From assembly GCA_017651565.1 (NCBI GenBank), contig JAGCCQ010000026.1, positions 1 through 32,923 of the forward strand: DNA of 32,923 bases. Reading direction: 5' to 3'. The translations under genes and the position numbers were made by a program. Under the pieces are notes generated by a model. It did not search any database, was not told the origin of the DNA, and saw only the letters and a list, made by a program, of their open reading frames with translations. Source of the stretch: Bacilli bacterium. Its GTDB lineage: Bacteria; Bacillota_I; Bacilli_A; RFN20; CAG-826. Positions 1,598 through 9,203 of this stretch are shown here, in pieces (the stretch's first letter is position 1; every line of letters begins with the position of its first letter).

Positions 1598-3052
1598 ATG
1601 AAAAACTTAGATTCAAATTATGACGTTTTAGTAGTGGGCGCCGGTATTGTTGGTGCTTTCGTATCAAGAGAACTTTCAAAATATGATTTAAAAGTAGGAT
1701 TGATTGAAGCACACAATGATGTAGGAAATGGCTGCTCAGGTGCAAATAGTGCGATTATTCATAGTGGTTATGATCCTAATCCAGGAACTTTAAAAGCTAA
1801 GTTCAATGCTTTAGGCAATCCAATGTGGGATCAAATTGCTGATGAACTTGATATAGACTTTACCCGTAAAGGTTCTTTAACTGTAGCTTTATATAGCGAA
1901 CAACTTCCTTTATTGGCAGACCTAGTTCAAAGAAGCAAAAAGAATGGTGTTCCAGTTAGATTATTAAACGCTGATGAAGTAAAAGCGATGGAACCAAACA
2001 TTTCTCCTAAAATCAAAGCAGCATTATATGCTCCAACCGCAGGAATTATCGATCCATTCTGCGCTGTAGTTAATACAATTGAAAATGCAGTAGACAATGG
2101 TGTAGAACTACTTTTAAACAATAAAGTTCTTTCGATTAGAAAAGAAAATGACTATTTTATAGTCAAAACAAATAAAAAAGAATATAAGACCAAATTAGTT
2201 ATTAACTGTGCTGGTGTTCATAGTGATGAAATCGCAAATATGATTGAACCAATTGATTGGAAGACAACTCCAAGACGTGGCGAATATTTTGTTTTAGATC
2301 ATTTTATGGATGGATTTGCAAACCACACAATTTTCCCTATGCCTAGTGAAAAGGGTAAAGGAATATTGATAACCCCAACAACAAGTAATAATTATTTATT
2401 AGGCCCTAGTAGTGAACTTATCGATGATTACGATGATGTATCTACTGATAAACCAACATTAGATAATGTCAAAGCGCAGGTTTTGGATATGGTTCCTGGA
2501 ATTCCTCTAAATAAAGTTATTAGAGTATTCTCAGGAAATAGACCTACAACAACTAGACATGATTTCATTATTGAATATGCAAAAACAGATAATCATTTTA
2601 TAAATGTAGCAGGTATTGAATCTCCTGGATTTGTTTGTGCTCCTGCAATCGCAAGATATGTTGTAGAAGATTTAGTACGCAATGTATATTCTCTTAAAGA
2701 GAATAAAAACTATAATTCACGAATTAGAAAGCACATTAAAATCAATAAAATGACTTACGAAGAAAGAGTGGAGTTTATTAAAAAGAATCCAGAATATGGA
2801 CGTATTATTTGTAACTGTGAGCAAGTTTCATTGGGTGAAATCAAAGACGTATTATCTAGAAATGCTGCTCCTACAACTGTAAAAGGAATTAAGAAAAGAT
2901 GTAGAGCAGGATTTGGTTTATGCCAAGGTGGATTCTGCCAATCTAAAGTTGTTGAAATCTTAGCAGATTACTATAATGTTTCGCCTTTAGATGTTTTATA
3001 TGATGATGAAGGAAGTAATATTCTTCTTAATATAATTAAGGAGGGCAAATAA
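1598..3052 (+). CDS. FAD-dependent oxidoreductase with C-terminal BFD [2Fe-2S] domain (anaerobic glycerol-3-phosphate dehydrogenase-like, GlpA family)
   Basis: A 484-aa DAO-family flavoprotein. The N-terminal dinucleotide-binding motif GAGIVG is at residues 14-19. The region after it (CSGANSAIIHSGYD) is typical of GlpA and L-2-hydroxyglutarate dehydrogenases. A BFD-type iron-sulphur domain occupies about residues 400-450, with cysteines 405, 407, 435, 442 and 447. In the family such proteins oxidise glycerol 3-phosphate, or a similar 2-hydroxy substrate, and pass electrons to a partner. It is the first gene of an operon with a GlpB-like flavoprotein and a DUF1667 protein, a set often found with glycerol genes in Bacillota. 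No glycerol kinase or facilitator is in the window, so the substrate is inferred. The start at 1598 is fixed by the Rossmann motif and has no SD. Confidence 0.85.
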   Translation: MKNLDSNYDVLVVGAGIVGAFVSRELSKYDLKVGLIEAHNDVGNGCSGANSAIIHSGYDPNPGTLKAKFNALGNPMWDQIADELDIDFTRKGSLTVALYSEQLPLLADLVQRSKKNGVPVRLLNADEVKAMEPNISPKIKAALYAPTAGIIDPFCAVVNTIENAVDNGVELLLNNKVLSIRKENDYFIVKTNKKEYKTKLVINCAGVHSDEIANMIEPIDWKTTPRRGEYFVLDHFMDGFANHTIFPMPSEKGKGILITPTTSNNYLLGPSSELIDDYDDVSTDKPTLDNVKAQVLDMVPGIPLNKVIRVFSGNRPTTTRHDFIIEYAKTDNHFINVAGIESPGFVCAPAIARYVVEDLVRNVYSLKENKNYNSRIRKHIKINKMTYEERVEFIKKNPEYGRIICNCEQVSLGEIKDVLSRNAAPTTVKGIKKRCRAGFGLCQGGFCQSKVVEILADYYNVSPLDVLYDDEGSNILLNIIKEGK

Positions 3053-3054
3053 TT

Positions 3055-4299
3055 ATGAGAACAATTGATCTTGTAGTTATTGGTGGCGGTTCCGCTGGAA
3101 TGGCTGCAGCTCTTCAAGCTAGAAAAGAAGGAATTCAAGATATTTTAATATTGGAAAAAGAAGACTCGTTGGGTGGAATTTTAACTCAATGTATTCATAA
3201 CGGATTTGGTCTGACTGAATTTAAAGAAGAGTTAACTGGGCCAGAATATTTGCAACGTTTTGTAGATCAAGTTGTTGAAGAAAAGATTCCATATGAATGT
3301 GGTGCGCAAGTACTAGATTTATCTAGAGATAAGGTAATCACTTATTCTAAAGACGGCAAGTTTGAAACATTACAAGCAAAAGCTATCGTAATGGCGACTG
3401 GTTGCTATGAAAGAAGCGCTGGTGCAATCCAAACTCCTGGTGATAGATGCTCGGGAATTATTACTGCAGGTGCTGCACAAAAATACTGCAACATCAAAGG
3501 ATACATGGTTGGAAAACGTGTTGTTATTTTAGGAAGTGGTGACATTGGCCTTATCATGGCAAGACGTTTAACTTTAGAAGGGGCAAAGGTAATTTGTGTT
3601 AGTGAAATTATGCCATATAGTGCTGGGTTGAATAGAAACATTCAACAATGTTTAAAAGATTATGATATTCCACTTTATCTTTCTAGAAGTGTTTCAAGAA
3701 CAATTGGCAAAGATAGATTAGAAAAAGTAATCCTTTCTGCAGTAGATGAAAAGATGAGCTTTATTCCTGGAACAGAAATGGAAATTGAGTGCGATACATT
3801 AGTCCTTTCAGTTGGATTAATTCCTTATATATCCTTATTAAATAATATTGATTGTCCAACTAGCTCAACTAAGGGTGCTGTAGTTAATAACTACATGGAG
3901 ACTATGATTGATGGTATTTTCTCATGCGGAAACTGCTTACATGTTCATGATGTAGTCGACTTTGTTACTGATGAAGGTAGAACTGCAGGACATGGTGCTG
4001 CTTTATACTTACAAAATAAGATTCATAAAGAGAATGATGTTAATACAGTTGCAGGTAATGGCGTTAGCTATGTCGTGCCTCAGTTCATTAACAAAAATGC
4101 AGAAGAAAATGTGACTTTGAAACTCAGAGTTCGCACGCCTTTAAAAGACCAATGGGTATTAATTAAAAGCGGTGGAAATGTTATTCAAAAAGTATTTAAA
4201 TCTGCAGTAATTCCTAGCGAAATGTTACTATTGACTTTATCTAAAGATAAATTATCATTAATTTCTGATGATTTAACTTTTGAATTGGAGGGCAAATAA
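3055..4299 (+). CDS. NAD(P)/FAD-dependent oxidoreductase, GlpB/HcnB-like partner subunit
   Basis: 414 aa of the pyridine-nucleotide-disulphide oxidoreductase fold. The first Rossmann motif is GGGSAG at residues 10-15 and a second nucleotide-binding motif, GSGDIG, is at 160-165. A late FAD motif contains SCGNC, then HDVVDFVTDEG. Such proteins pair with GlpA-like flavoproteins as the electron-transfer subunit. The start is ATG 3055, with GGAGGG at 3040-3045, 9 nt upstream and inside the last codons of the previous gene. The gap to the upstream stop is 2 nt, so the genes are cotranscribed. The C-terminus FELEGK resembles the IIKEGK end of its upstream neighbour because both encode the SD of the next gene. 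Confidence 0.85.
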   Translation: MRTIDLVVIGGGSAGMAAALQARKEGIQDILILEKEDSLGGILTQCIHNGFGLTEFKEELTGPEYLQRFVDQVVEEKIPYECGAQVLDLSRDKVITYSKDGKFETLQAKAIVMATGCYERSAGAIQTPGDRCSGIITAGAAQKYCNIKGYMVGKRVVILGSGDIGLIMARRLTLEGAKVICVSEIMPYSAGLNRNIQQCLKDYDIPLYLSRSVSRTIGKDRLEKVILSAVDEKMSFIPGTEMEIECDTLVLSVGLIPYISLLNNIDCPTSSTKGAVVNNYMETMIDGIFSCGNCLHVHDVVDFVTDEGRTAGHGAALYLQNKIHKENDVNTVAGNGVSYVVPQFINKNAEENVTLKLRVRTPLKDQWVLIKSGGNVIQKVFKSAVIPSEMLLLTLSKDKLSLISDDLTFELEGK

Positions 4300-4300
4300 T

Positions 4301-4642
4301 ATGAGAGAATTTACATGCATAATTTGTCCGAGAGGATGCTCTTTGAAAGTAGATGATAACGGTAATGTTACAGGCAATTTCTGCCCAAGAGGAAAAGAAT
4401 ACGCAATTAACGAAATTACTAATCCAAAAAGAACAATTACTACAACAATTAGAGTAAAAAATAGAAAAGACACAGTTGTTAGCGTCAAGACAACTTGTGC
4501 TGTACCTAAAGGTATGATCTTCCAAGTTATGGAAGTTATTAATACCTTATCTGTTGACGCACCTACTAGAATCGGAGATGTTGTTTATAACAACATTCTT
4601 GATACTGGTGCCGATGTAGTTATTACAAAAAATATTGATTAA
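4301..4642 (+). CDS. DUF1667 family cysteine-rich protein
   Basis: 113 aa from ATG 4301; GGAGGG at 4287-4292 is 8 nt upstream, and earlier in-frame starts would swallow that SD. The N-terminus carries C6-x2-C9-x3-C13 and C28 (CIICPRGC, then FCPRG), a likely metal or Fe-S site that recalls the N-terminal cluster motifs of molybdopterin oxidoreductases. DUF1667 proteins regularly follow GlpA/GlpB-like pairs, where they may replace the Fe-S electron carrier GlpC. It sits 1 nt after the upstream stop. Biochemical function is not established; the electron-transfer role is inferred. Confidence 0.85.
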   Translation: MREFTCIICPRGCSLKVDDNGNVTGNFCPRGKEYAINEITNPKRTITTTIRVKNRKDTVVSVKTTCAVPKGMIFQVMEVINTLSVDAPTRIGDVVYNNILDTGADVVITKNID

Positions 4643-4644
4643 TA

Positions 4645-4672
4645 TTGATATTTATATATTTTGATATATAAT
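4645..4672 (+). promoter_or_regulatory. Promoter of the RNase J gene
   Basis: TTGATA (4645-4650), a 16-bp spacer and a perfect TATAAT (4667-4672). The predicted transcript starts near 4679, giving a leader of about 47 nt with a strong SD, GAGGTGAGG at 4711-4719. Confidence 0.75.
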
Positions 4673-4725
4673 AAACACGAAGATTTTGCATAGCCAATAA
4701 TCAAAATATAGAGGTGAGGTTTTTT

Positions 4726-6411
4726 ATGGCTGATATTATTAAAGTGTTGCCTTTAAGTGGGCTTGATGAGAAAGGAAGAGACTGTTACATTGTTGAAATC
4801 AACAATGATATCTTTGTTCTAGATTGTGGAACTGTTTCACCAGATAAAACAATTCCTGGTGTTGATTTTCTTTTACCAAACGCAAAATACCTTATCGATA
4901 ATAAATCTCGTTTAAAAGGCTATTTCATTACTCATGGTCATGATGAAAACATGGCTGCATTAAAGTATTTCTATAAAGATGCTCCAGCACCTATTTTCTG
5001 TAGTAAAGCAACTCGCATGATCATGGAAAAACAAGCTGAAATTCAAGGTGTTAAAGTTGATTTCCATTTCTATGAAGTTAATCCATCTGATGAAATAGTA
5101 GTAGCAAATAGAAAATTCATTTTCTTCCAAACTACACATAACTGTTGTTATTCTTCTGGTATCGCTATTGATACTGATAAAGGATACATCGTTTATACAG
5201 GAGACTTTATTGTCGATTATTCTTTAAAGAATAAAGCGTTCCAATTTGACTTAAAACAATTATCAAAGATTTCTGAAAAAGAAACATTCCTTTTAATGGC
5301 AGAAAGTAAGACTGCAGATAAACCTGGTTACTGTTCTCCTAAACACGAAGTAGCAAGTAAAATTGAAAAGTATTTCAAACAAGATAAACGTTTATTTGTT
5401 AACTGTTTCTGGCAAAATATTTTTAGAATTTATGAAATTGTTGATCTTTGTAAGAAATATAGAAAGAAAATCTATTGTTACAACCGTTATTCATACGATA
5501 TTTTCAATATGATTTTAGATATCGAACCAAGTTTATATCCAAGAGCAGACTTAGTTACAAAAGATAATCTTTTGAGAAATAGAAAAGAAGACACAGTTAT
5601 TTTAATTCTTGGTAAAGGCGAAGATTTATACACAGAAATTAGTAAAATCGTTAACAAAACTAATGATGATAAGAGAATTGCTTTTGAAAAGGGAGACATT
5701 TTCTTAAACTGTGCGCTTCCTACTCCAACATTAGAAGTTATTTCAACTAGATGCATCGATTCTATTTATAGAACTGAAGCAGATGTTGTTTGGATTAAAG
5801 GAAAAGATCTTTCATCCATGCATGCTAGACAAGATGACTTAAAGTTCTTCTTATCTGTTTTAAAACCAAAATATTATCTTCCTGTTAGAGGAACATATGT
5901 TGAAATGATGGCAAACGCTAAACTTGCTGTTTCAATGAATGTTGGTTTAACTCATAATTCAGTTTTTATTATTGATAATGGTATGGAACTCATATTCAAT
6001 AACGAAGGCAGAGTAAAAATTGTTAATAACGAAGAAAACGAAATTGCAATTGAACCAGTCATTGTTGATGGTAAGGCAATTTCTAACATTGGTTCTGAAG
6101 TTATTGAAGATAGAAGAAGACTTGGACGTGATGGTGTTGTCATCATCGCTTCAACAGTCTCTATTAAAAAACAACGTATCGTTTGTGGACCTGACTGCCA
6201 AATGAGAGGCTTTGTTTATGTTAAAGAAGCAGAGCCAATTGTTAAGGCAATAGTGAATATTTACATTGATGAAGTTAATAAAGCATTAGCTGCTGGAAAG
6301 AAGAGTTTCACTGAAGTTGAAGCTACAATTAAAGACAGAGTTAAGAAGTTCATCAAGCGTGAAAATGGTAGAGAACCACTCGTCCATCCTATCGTAATTG
6401 TCGGCGAATAA
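4726..6411 (+). CDS. RNase J family protein with degenerate second metal site (J2-like)
   Basis: 561 aa, the usual RNase J length, with an N-terminal metallo-beta-lactamase fold, an inserted beta-CASP domain and a C-terminal domain. RNase J is a 5' exo/endonuclease of mRNA decay in Bacillota. The start is ATG 4726, with GAGGTGAGG 6 nt upstream; an in-frame start at 4714 lies within that SD. The first-metal ligands are kept (H70, H72, H138, and D160 in TGDF). The second-site ligands are not: the usual HxHxDH reads H70-G-H72-D73-E74-N75, and the usual HGEY motif reads R388-G-T-Y. The following HA is N397-A. B. subtilis RNase J2 has a comparably altered motif and supports J1, so this is probably the weak or structural paralogue, with an active J1 elsewhere. 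It has its own promoter and terminator. Confidence 0.88.
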   Translation: MADIIKVLPLSGLDEKGRDCYIVEINNDIFVLDCGTVSPDKTIPGVDFLLPNAKYLIDNKSRLKGYFITHGHDENMAALKYFYKDAPAPIFCSKATRMIMEKQAEIQGVKVDFHFYEVNPSDEIVVANRKFIFFQTTHNCCYSSGIAIDTDKGYIVYTGDFIVDYSLKNKAFQFDLKQLSKISEKETFLLMAESKTADKPGYCSPKHEVASKIEKYFKQDKRLFVNCFWQNIFRIYEIVDLCKKYRKKIYCYNRYSYDIFNMILDIEPSLYPRADLVTKDNLLRNRKEDTVILILGKGEDLYTEISKIVNKTNDDKRIAFEKGDIFLNCALPTPTLEVISTRCIDSIYRTEADVVWIKGKDLSSMHARQDDLKFFLSVLKPKYYLPVRGTYVEMMANAKLAVSMNVGLTHNSVFIIDNGMELIFNNEGRVKIVNNEENEIAIEPVIVDGKAISNIGSEVIEDRRRLGRDGVVIIASTVSIKKQRIVCGPDCQMRGFVYVKEAEPIVKAIVNIYIDEVNKALAAGKKSFTEVEATIKDRVKKFIKRENGREPLVHPIVIVGE

Positions 6412-6413
6412 TT

Positions 6414-6436
6414 AGACCTAAATCTTAGGTCTTTTT
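6414..6436 (+). terminator. Intrinsic terminator after RNase J
   Basis: A perfect 8-bp stem AGACCTAA/TTAGGTCT (6414-6421 with 6425-6432), loop ATC, then a T-tail. The tail runs directly into the -35 box of the ftsK promoter at 6438. Confidence 0.9.
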
Positions 6437-6473: not shown

Positions 6474-9203
6474 ATGGCAAAAAAACCTATTAAAGAATTT
6501 TCAAAAAGAGCATATATCGTATACATAGGTGTGTTCCTATGTTTATTAAGCATAATACTGTTCCTTAACGCAGGGTACGTTGCGAAAGGATTATCATTTT
6601 CTTTTACTTATGTTTTAGGATTTACTAGTTACATTTTCTACGGACTATTATTTGCAGAAGGTGTTTTCTTTATCGTTAAAAATAAAGGTATTACTTTCAT
6701 CGCTAACAAATACTTCTGGTTCGCATTAGCTTTCATTATTGGCTTAAGCGGACTTGTAACTTATTTTTTAGTAGATCAAGAAAGTGCAATTTTATCTTTC
6801 GTTGATTCTGAAAAAGAAGTGAATATTTTTGGTGAATTACACAACATCACTGTTGATTACTTCAAAAGAGAAACAATTAAATCCAATTTCTTCTTCGATG
6901 GAAACCAAAAAATTGGCTGTGGTTTATTAGGCTATTCAGTGTTAGCTCTTGGTAATAGTGCTTTCACTAATCTTTATGGCGGCCTTATCCTTTCAATCTT
7001 ATCAATGTGTGTTGGCGCTGCTTTAATTATCATCTTCGCTATTGTTGAAGGCGTATCAGGTAAGAAATCAATCGAGAAAAATAGTGATGGTGTTAATAAA
7101 CATCAAAGAATTAAGAATATTAACGTAGTCAAAGACGCTAAAAAAGTCGATCCAGGAAAATATCATTCTGAAGTTTCTGGAGCTGGAAGAAATGTCAGAA
7201 ATCTTTCTGATGATCCACAAGATGGATATGATTCTCCATTCTCCGAAGAAACTTTAGAACATCACATTACTGAAAAAGATCCAATGATTGAATCTCTGGA
7301 TGAATTTAGAAAACCGGTTTTCGAAATGGATGATTTTTCACCTGCACCTATTATTTCAGGTAATTATGAACCATTAGTTAATAATGACTTTATGAACGCT
7401 CCTGAAGAATCGGATGTTTCTATGGATGATGGTGATGTTTTCGGTGATCCTTTCAAAGAAAGAACTTTCGAACCAACTCCAGCACCTGCTCCAGTTGAAA
7501 AACCTGTTGAACCTAGATATGAACCTCCTGTTCAAGAATATCAACAACCGGTTCAACAACCAAGATACGAACAACCAGTTCAACCTCAACCAAGATTCGA
7601 ACAACCTGTTAGACCTACATTTAATCAACCGGTTCAACCTCAACCACAACCAAGAGTTGAACCACAACAAAGTAGTGCTCAACCAGGAGCTAAAAAACCT
7701 AGAGTAAATTTCCAAGTCATTGGTAGTGGCTTATTAGAATCATATGAAACTGCACACGCTTTAGAAGTTAATACTGCTATGGCTGCAGAAAGAAAAGAAA
7801 TTATTAATAATACTTTTAAAGATTTCAATGTTGGCGCAGAAGTTATGGACTACACAATTGGTCCTAGTATTACTAGATACAACATTAGATATAATTCTAA
7901 TGTTTCATCAAGAGCTGTCGCTAATTTAGTCCAAGATATTTCTATTAGATTAAACGGTGTTAGTGCTCGTTTCGAATCTGTTATTGAAGGCCAATCAACT
8001 TCTGGTCTTGAAATTCCTAATAAGGAAATCACAACAGTTGCATTTAAAGATGTTTATGAAGCTCTTCCTGATCCAAAGAAACACCCTTTAGCAATTGCTT
8101 TTGGTAAGAATATTAAAGGTAGCGTCATTTACGCTGACTATGATGAATTCCCTCATATGTTAATTTCAGGTACTACTGGTTCTGGCAAATCTGTTTTCGT
8201 TAACTCAATCATTTGTACTTTAATCATGAGAAATTCACCAGATGATTTAAAACTCGTTTTAGTTGACCCTAAGAAAGTTGAAATGTCTCGTTATGCAGAT
8301 ATGCCTCACTTATTAACTCCAATTATCACTGAACCAACTAAAGTTAAATTGGTTTTAGATAAGTTAGTAGATGAGATGGAATATAGATATTCATTATTCA
8401 GTAAGAATAATGCAACTAACATTAAAGAATACAATGAAGACTGTGAATTTAATGGTAACGAAAGAATGCCATATATCTTAGTTGTTCTTGATGAATATGC
8501 TGATTTAGTCGAACAATGTAAAGATATTTCTTTCCCAGTTGTTAGTATTGCTCAAAAAGCTAGAGCTTGTGGTATTCACATCATGCTTTCAACTCAAAGA
8601 CCAAGTACTAACGTAGTTACTGGTGTTATTAAAGCTAACATGCCTACTCACGTTGCACTTATGACTGCAAACTATGTTGATAGTACAACAATCATTGGTG
8701 AAGGTGGTGCTGAAAAACTTTTAGGTAAAGGTGATATGCTTGTTCAATCTCCATTAGTTTCTAGAGTTGGCGTATGTCGTTTACAATCATGTTTCATTAA
8801 TAGAAGAGAAATTATCAAGATTGTTACAGAATTAAAGAATAAATATCCAACTAACTTTGATCCTGAATTCATGAACTTAGAAGAACAAAAACCAGAAACA
8901 GCATTTGCTCCTGGTGATCTTCCTGAAGGCGGCAGCGGAGATAATGATTTCGACGCAAAATACAATTCAATCAAAGATTGGGTTATGGGACAAGAATATA
9001 TGTCTATGTCAAAAATCCAAAGAGATTGTGGCGTTGGATTTAATAGAGCAGGTCGTATCTTCAATAGATTACAACAAGAAGGTATTGTTGCTCCTGAATC
9101 AGAAGGCAGTAAAGGATGCAGAGTCCTCCAACAAAATAAATTTGGTGACATCAGTGATGATGATCTAATCCCAACTAGCGAAGAAAATTCTTATATTAAA
9201 TAA
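6474..9203 (+). CDS. ftsK: DNA translocase FtsK/SpoIIIE
   Basis: 909 aa. Four hydrophobic membrane segments lie at about residues 14-34, 44-66, 78-100 and 165-190. A long acidic linker follows, then a Pro/Gln-rich stretch at about 353-402 with repeats of QPVQ/EQPV type. The motor has Walker A GTTGSGKS at 566-573 and Walker B VVLDE at 670-674. The C-terminal gamma winged-helix domain contains GFNRAGRIFNRLQQEGIV, which reads polar DNA motifs. The protein pumps chromosomal DNA through the division septum. The start is ATG 6474, directly downstream of a -10 box with no SD. The pullulanase gene begins 2 nt after the stop, so the two are cotranscribed although functionally unrelated. Confidence 0.95.
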   Translation: MAKKPIKEFSKRAYIVYIGVFLCLLSIILFLNAGYVAKGLSFSFTYVLGFTSYIFYGLLFAEGVFFIVKNKGITFIANKYFWFALAFIIGLSGLVTYFLVDQESAILSFVDSEKEVNIFGELHNITVDYFKRETIKSNFFFDGNQKIGCGLLGYSVLALGNSAFTNLYGGLILSILSMCVGAALIIIFAIVEGVSGKKSIEKNSDGVNKHQRIKNINVVKDAKKVDPGKYHSEVSGAGRNVRNLSDDPQDGYDSPFSEETLEHHITEKDPMIESLDEFRKPVFEMDDFSPAPIISGNYEPLVNNDFMNAPEESDVSMDDGDVFGDPFKERTFEPTPAPAPVEKPVEPRYEPPVQEYQQPVQQPRYEQPVQPQPRFEQPVRPTFNQPVQPQPQPRVEPQQSSAQPGAKKPRVNFQVIGSGLLESYETAHALEVNTAMAAERKEIINNTFKDFNVGAEVMDYTIGPSITRYNIRYNSNVSSRAVANLVQDISIRLNGVSARFESVIEGQSTSGLEIPNKEITTVAFKDVYEALPDPKKHPLAIAFGKNIKGSVIYADYDEFPHMLISGTTGSGKSVFVNSIICTLIMRNSPDDLKLVLVDPKKVEMSRYADMPHLLTPIITEPTKVKLVLDKLVDEMEYRYSLFSKNNATNIKEYNEDCEFNGNERMPYILVVLDEYADLVEQCKDISFPVVSIAQKARACGIHIMLSTQRPSTNVVTGVIKANMPTHVALMTANYVDSTTIIGEGGAEKLLGKGDMLVQSPLVSRVGVCRLQSCFINRREIIKIVTELKNKYPTNFDPEFMNLEEQKPETAFAPGDLPEGGSGDNDFDAKYNSIKDWVMGQEYMSMSKIQRDCGVGFNRAGRIFNRLQQEGIVAPESEGSKGCRVLQQNKFGDISDDDLIPTSEENSYIK

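Follow-up and report, generated by a model that had tools for sequence, protein, structure and literature searches.

The gene at positions 4726 to 6411 of the window, by which we mean the whole 32,923-nucleotide stretch of DNA analysed here, is very probably rnjB (we put this at about 85%), encoding RNase J2, a diverged paralogue of RNase J1 that would act as the structural partner of J1 and show at most a weak nuclease activity with a single metal. Its product is an ordinary RNase J2, and the loss of metal ligands that it displays has already been described in the literature. The features of the region are given below, with residues matched to B. subtilis J1 numbering.

4645–4672, plus strand: promoter-like sequence, TTGATA-16-TATAAT, 11/12 match (motif scan)
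4726–6411, plus strand: rnjB, assigned to RNase J2, complete gene of 561 aa (ORF call, profile matches, alignment, tree, fold)
4933–4950, plus strand: motif HGHDEN, aa 70–75 (HGHEDH in J1), with H70 and H72 retained, D78 replaced by E74 and H79 by N75 (alignment)
5137–5139, plus strand: H138, matching J1 H142, a ligand of the first metal, retained (alignment)
5203–5205, plus strand: D160, matching J1 D164, which bridges both metals in J1, retained (alignment; ligand roles as reported in PMC7864078)
5821–5823, plus strand: H366, matching J1 H368, the substrate-loop histidine, retained (alignment)
5887–5889, plus strand: R388, matching J1 H390, a ligand of the second metal, now Arg (alignment)
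5914–5916, plus strand: N397 (of 'NA'), a conserved J2 residue at no metal-ligand position (alignment)
6414–6432, plus strand: terminator-like hairpin 3' of rnjB (motif scan)
6474–9203, plus strand: ftsK/spoIIIE, conserved downstream neighbour of rnjB

The 561-residue protein comprises a metallo-β-lactamase (MBL) domain (aa 17–196), a β-CASP domain (aa 221–344), an RMMBL domain (aa 363–401) and the RNase J C-terminal domain (aa 459–558), and the Pfam models PF00753, PF22505, PF07521 and PF17770 all match at or above their gathering scores. The NCBIfam models of RNase J1 and of the RNase J family match it over the full length, both under cut-off, with a score of 348 against 820 for NF047419 and of 347.8 against a curated 400 for TIGR00649 (RNase J family). 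It is a divergent member of RNase J that falls below the TIGR00649 cut-off, yet is placed in the family by fold and tree.

Ligand positions were read from an alignment to four solved RNase Js, namely B. subtilis J1, S. epidermidis J1 and J2, and S. coelicolor RNase J. In S. epidermidis J1 one Mn is reported to be held by H74, H76, H142 and D164 and the other by D78, H79, D164 and H390 (PMC7864078). The window protein keeps H70 and H72, which align with H74 and H76, together with H138 and D160, and is changed at E74, N75 and R388, the last lying in an RGTY sequence where J1 has HGEY. This bears out an earlier note on this DNA, which had claimed from the letters a loss confined to the ligands of one metal site in a full-length protein; the 561-aa frame lies where that note placed it. 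The SMH loop had been overlooked there: its histidine is retained as H366, and J1 H364 is Leu in the window protein.

The assignment to RNase J2 rests first on a tree of 160 rows, computed by a quick search with the 13 active-site columns removed, in which the long rows L076 and L077 are placed less surely. All 103 rows lacking the intact ligand set, S. epidermidis J2 (6k6w) included, form one clade with an SH-aLRT support of 100, and the 57 rows with all seven ligands fall on the opposite side of that single branch. The nearest rows in the tree are close relatives, and a lateral or otherwise odd origin of the gene was rejected. S. epidermidis RNase J2 is also the closest match in the Protein Data Bank by sequence. 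An AlphaFold2 model of the window protein reached a mean pLDDT of 91.6 and a pTM of 0.79; its input alignment held 65 rows, four of them J1, with five J2 rows of total first-metal histidine loss excluded (L061, L074, L076 and others), and H70 and H72 are invariant in it because rows without those histidines had been left out. The best structural match of the model is again 6k6w (Z 47.4, rmsd 2.1 over 437 residues), and the top Foldseek match is 9a5v, an integrative model whose entry title names RNJ2-RNJ1 and whose species we take to be B. subtilis. Compared with a same-genus relative, dN/dS is 0.087 for rnjB and 0.054 for J1, and rnjB is under strong purifying selection. Since close relatives share the pattern of kept and changed ligands and dN/dS is this low, the selective loss is not due to chance, in agreement with the earlier note.

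How widely the pattern extends was read from a larger set, after omission of ORFs shorter than 450 aa and near-identical rows. A 'J2 row' is here a row without all seven ligands, a definition backed by the tree for the first 160 rows and carried over to the 112 rows added later. Among the 58 J2 rows at the level of the order, a count that omits L043 to L054 (L043 and L044 being same-order loci), H74, H76 and H142 are each kept in 55, H368 in 55 and D164 in 53, and a histidine stands at position 79 or at position 390 in none. Across the class, the seven-ligand set is intact in 0 of 215 J2 rows, as their definition dictates; H390 is kept in 2 and absent from 213, H79 is kept in 16, and the three first-metal histidines are retained together in 170. 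Parsimony on the 160-row tree requires two changes for His390 and four for His79, from which it follows that the loss at 390 is old. Families f14, f16, f18, f19, f21 and f23 still carry HxHxDH or something near it, but mostly have Ile at 390. Judged from these alignments and the tree, the loss of second-metal ligands is a property of the J2 clade inherited from the J2 ancestor, and is thus not peculiar to the window gene. A first sample had suggested all-or-none joint loss of H74, H76 and H142; this was dropped, as the larger sample holds partial losses (HHQ 6, QHH 4 and others). The later change of 'HA' to 'NA', which the earlier note had listed after the changed ligands, is not the loss of a ligand: N397 carries no information on metal, because Asn is found there in 191 of the 215 J2 rows and also in the two-metal S. 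coelicolor RNase J.

A search of the window protein's own genome (80 contigs, 73.7% complete) for a second, intact RNase J returned exactly one other match. This RNase J1 (L002) carries HGHEDH, THS, TGD, HSSGH and HGEH, with every ligand present, and sits immediately 3' of a gene read by eye as peptide deformylase. With a complete J1 in the genome, and with tree, fold and gene neighbourhood all pointing to RNase J2, the earlier note's suggestion of a J2-like scaffold or a single-metal enzyme is supported. By the match table, a J1-type and a J2-type match occur together in 53 of 58 genomes, this one included, where some of the matches counted are fragments (as in G034 and G036). A single RNase J match was found in G005, G024, G048, G049 and G051, four of which are less than 90% complete. 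In G020, a near-complete genome, the coding sequence of RNase J2 is divided among three reading frames that overlap (L075, G020:C1:367500-371200), reflecting either a frameshifted gene or assembly errors. G046 yielded two J2-like matches (L058) plus a J1, and may be a mixed bin because its contamination is 4%.

The start of rnjB is likely best placed at the ATG at 4726, which is preceded by AGAGGTGAGG at 4710–4719; the alternative GTG at 4714 falls within AGAGGTGAGG. The strong expression signals that had been read here survive in part, as the 11/12 promoter match and the hairpin at 6414–6432 are present, but the signals are only moderate, with 12 promoter-like sites against 12.6 in shuffles, a number not above chance. 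Terminator-like sites in the region number 4 against 0.7 in shuffles. One such hairpin, at 4788–4807, lies within the first rnjB codons, where it may reflect attenuation or chance. The ftsK/spoIIIE gene stands directly 3' of rnjB on the same strand in the window and in most of the near relatives whose flanks are long enough, and ftsK also follows the J2 gene directly in two families of this class, f20 and f25; in B. subtilis, too, rnjB lies near spoIIIE. Upstream, window positions 1598–4642 hold a type 2 glycerol-3-phosphate oxidase-like gene, an FAD/NAD oxidoreductase and a small CxxC protein, which we take to be DUF1667-like, and this gene order recurs in close relatives.

We propose that the window J2 would form a complex with RNase J1, like the J2s of B. 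subtilis, S. aureus and E. faecalis, with the cutting site supplied by J1. J2 itself would hold one structural metal and bind both RNA and J1, its nuclease activity being at most weak and of the one-metal type, and the guanidinium group of R388 might sit where the lost second metal was bound and make up for its charge. The mechanism with the best support is that of a partner of J1 which carries one metal and itself cuts little or not at all. The retained H70, H72, H138 and D160 could also mean a structural metal without catalysis. A scaffold and a weak one-metal enzyme are not separable from the sequence. Not every J2 would be a pure scaffold, since the activity of E. faecalis J2 is reported to be required for pilus production (PMC5383250) and S. 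mutans J2 is reported to be a potent nuclease (PMC6759994).

The protein could instead be an active single-metal ribonuclease with RNA targets of its own, in which H366 or R388 helps to activate water or to hold the scissile phosphate, a possibility that we regard as unlikely even though several observations speak for it. The ligands of the first metal and H366 are strongly retained, at 55 of 58 order-level rows; activity of E. faecalis J2 is reported to be lost in H69A and H71A and not in D73A, so that it rests on the two matching histidines rather than the Asp (PMC5383250); and S. epidermidis J2, with one metal, is reported to cleave RNA in vitro (PMC7864078). However, the activity of J2 is given as far below that of J1 in B. 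subtilis and E. faecalis (PMC5383250), and in S. aureus deletion of J2 is reported to give a phenotype where the active-site mutant gave none, and a structural role in a J1-J2 complex was proposed (PMC3937233). Moreover, several relatives keep the J2 gene though their first-metal ligands are lost.

Such relatives lend some weight to a pure scaffold that binds no metal, its retained histidines being a structural or RNA-binding remnant. In all 17 J2 rows of genus g26 (L061, L226, L235, L238, L244, L250, L256, L260, L261, L265, L268, L273, L277, L278, L280, L283 and L286), positions 74 and 76 are Lys, 142 is Ala or Ser and 78 is Asn or Gln; D164 and H368 are kept, and position 390 is Glu (15) or Lys (2). 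A single event on the tree suffices for the two lysines, and dN/dS between the closest g26 pairs is 0.05 to 0.07, so these proteins are maintained; they are conserved and presumably metal-free J2s. All three histidines are missing from three order-level rows, and likewise from three J2s (L151, L152 and L153, with N/A/S, N/A/S and K/S/T) of a family in which TGA codes for an amino acid; the sole J1 read from that family (L154) is intact. Genus g7 shows scattered ligand losses in 10 of 11 assignable J2 rows. Taken at the level of sequence, the g26, g7 and TGA-code lineages argue that a J2 can work without a catalytic metal. For the window protein, in which, as in the 170 J2 rows counted above, all three histidines are present, a metal-free scaffold is quite improbable. 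That the gene is a decaying RNase J pseudogene, to which the lost second-metal ligands might point, was rejected outright, given the full-length frame, the low dN/dS, the high-confidence predicted fold, the J2-type genes of most relatives and the one pattern across the whole clade.

The partner role preferred here leaves room for a further, tentative proposal about what replaced the metal. Position 390 is basic in 144 of the 215 J2 rows (Lys 97, Arg 47), and the pairs at positions 78 and 390 number 84 for DK, 44 for ER, 7 for EK and 0 for DR. On the tree the 78-390 pairing amounts to three to five independent contrasts, none of them contrary, with which a sign test is unable to reach 0.05; shared descent may account for the counts, and the pairing is not claimed as established. 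In a large branch of J2, the second metal might have been replaced by a buried Lys or Arg at 390 beside an acidic residue at 78 (Asp where 390 is Lys, Glu where it is Arg), and in g26 two lysines might in turn have taken the place of the residues that bind the remaining metal, D164 and H368 staying where they are, to give a metal-free J2 in which side-chain charges substitute for both ions; the proposal is plausible, but we lean somewhat against it as it stands. If true, J2 would be a subunit that binds RNA without cutting it and preserves the form and charge of a metallo active site. Among open-licence PMC papers we found no direct match for Lys or Arg at H390 or for a metal-free J2, and likewise did not find in print the Lys/Arg at 390 or the g26 lysines at H74 and H76, which appear to go beyond the known literature. 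At the sequence level, some J2 lineages have discarded both metal sites yet kept the gene, and these naturally occurring forms (HHH combined with K/R, the KK form of genus g26 and the eroded genus g7) suit tests of the need of J2 for metal alongside RNase J1.

The closest known system is RNase J2 of S. epidermidis (6k6w), whose crystal structure is reported to hold one Mn, at the site matching the kept ligands of the window protein (PMC7864078). The two are alike in clade, fold, the kept first-metal histidines and the lost second-metal ligands. They differ in that S. epidermidis J2 has His, itself a ligand, at D78, Glu at D164, Gln at H390 and a kept H364, where the window protein has E, D, R and L, and the one-metal geometry differs because of that fifth ligand and the Glu at 164. 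Whether a site for one metal is usual among RNase J2s is a question raised by PMC7864078 that the present survey answers at the sequence level, with H390 missing from nearly all J2 rows sampled across the class and the first-metal histidines mostly kept. E. faecalis RNase J2 offers a second likeness, as the second-zinc ligands are described as not conserved in RNase J2s and the first-metal histidines are needed there for activity; the same paper lists D73 (J1 D78) as conserved, where the window protein has Glu, E74 (PMC5383250). RNase J1, both that of the same genome (L002) and that of B. subtilis (3zq4), shares family and domain order with the window protein at about 25% identity, but has all seven ligands where the window protein lacks three. 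Among eukaryotic β-CASP proteins, CPSF73/CPSF100 and IntS11/IntS9 are pairs of an active metallo-nuclease and a diverged partner without metal ligands. Both are eukaryotic complexes, and they resemble the pairing of J1 with J2 by analogy.
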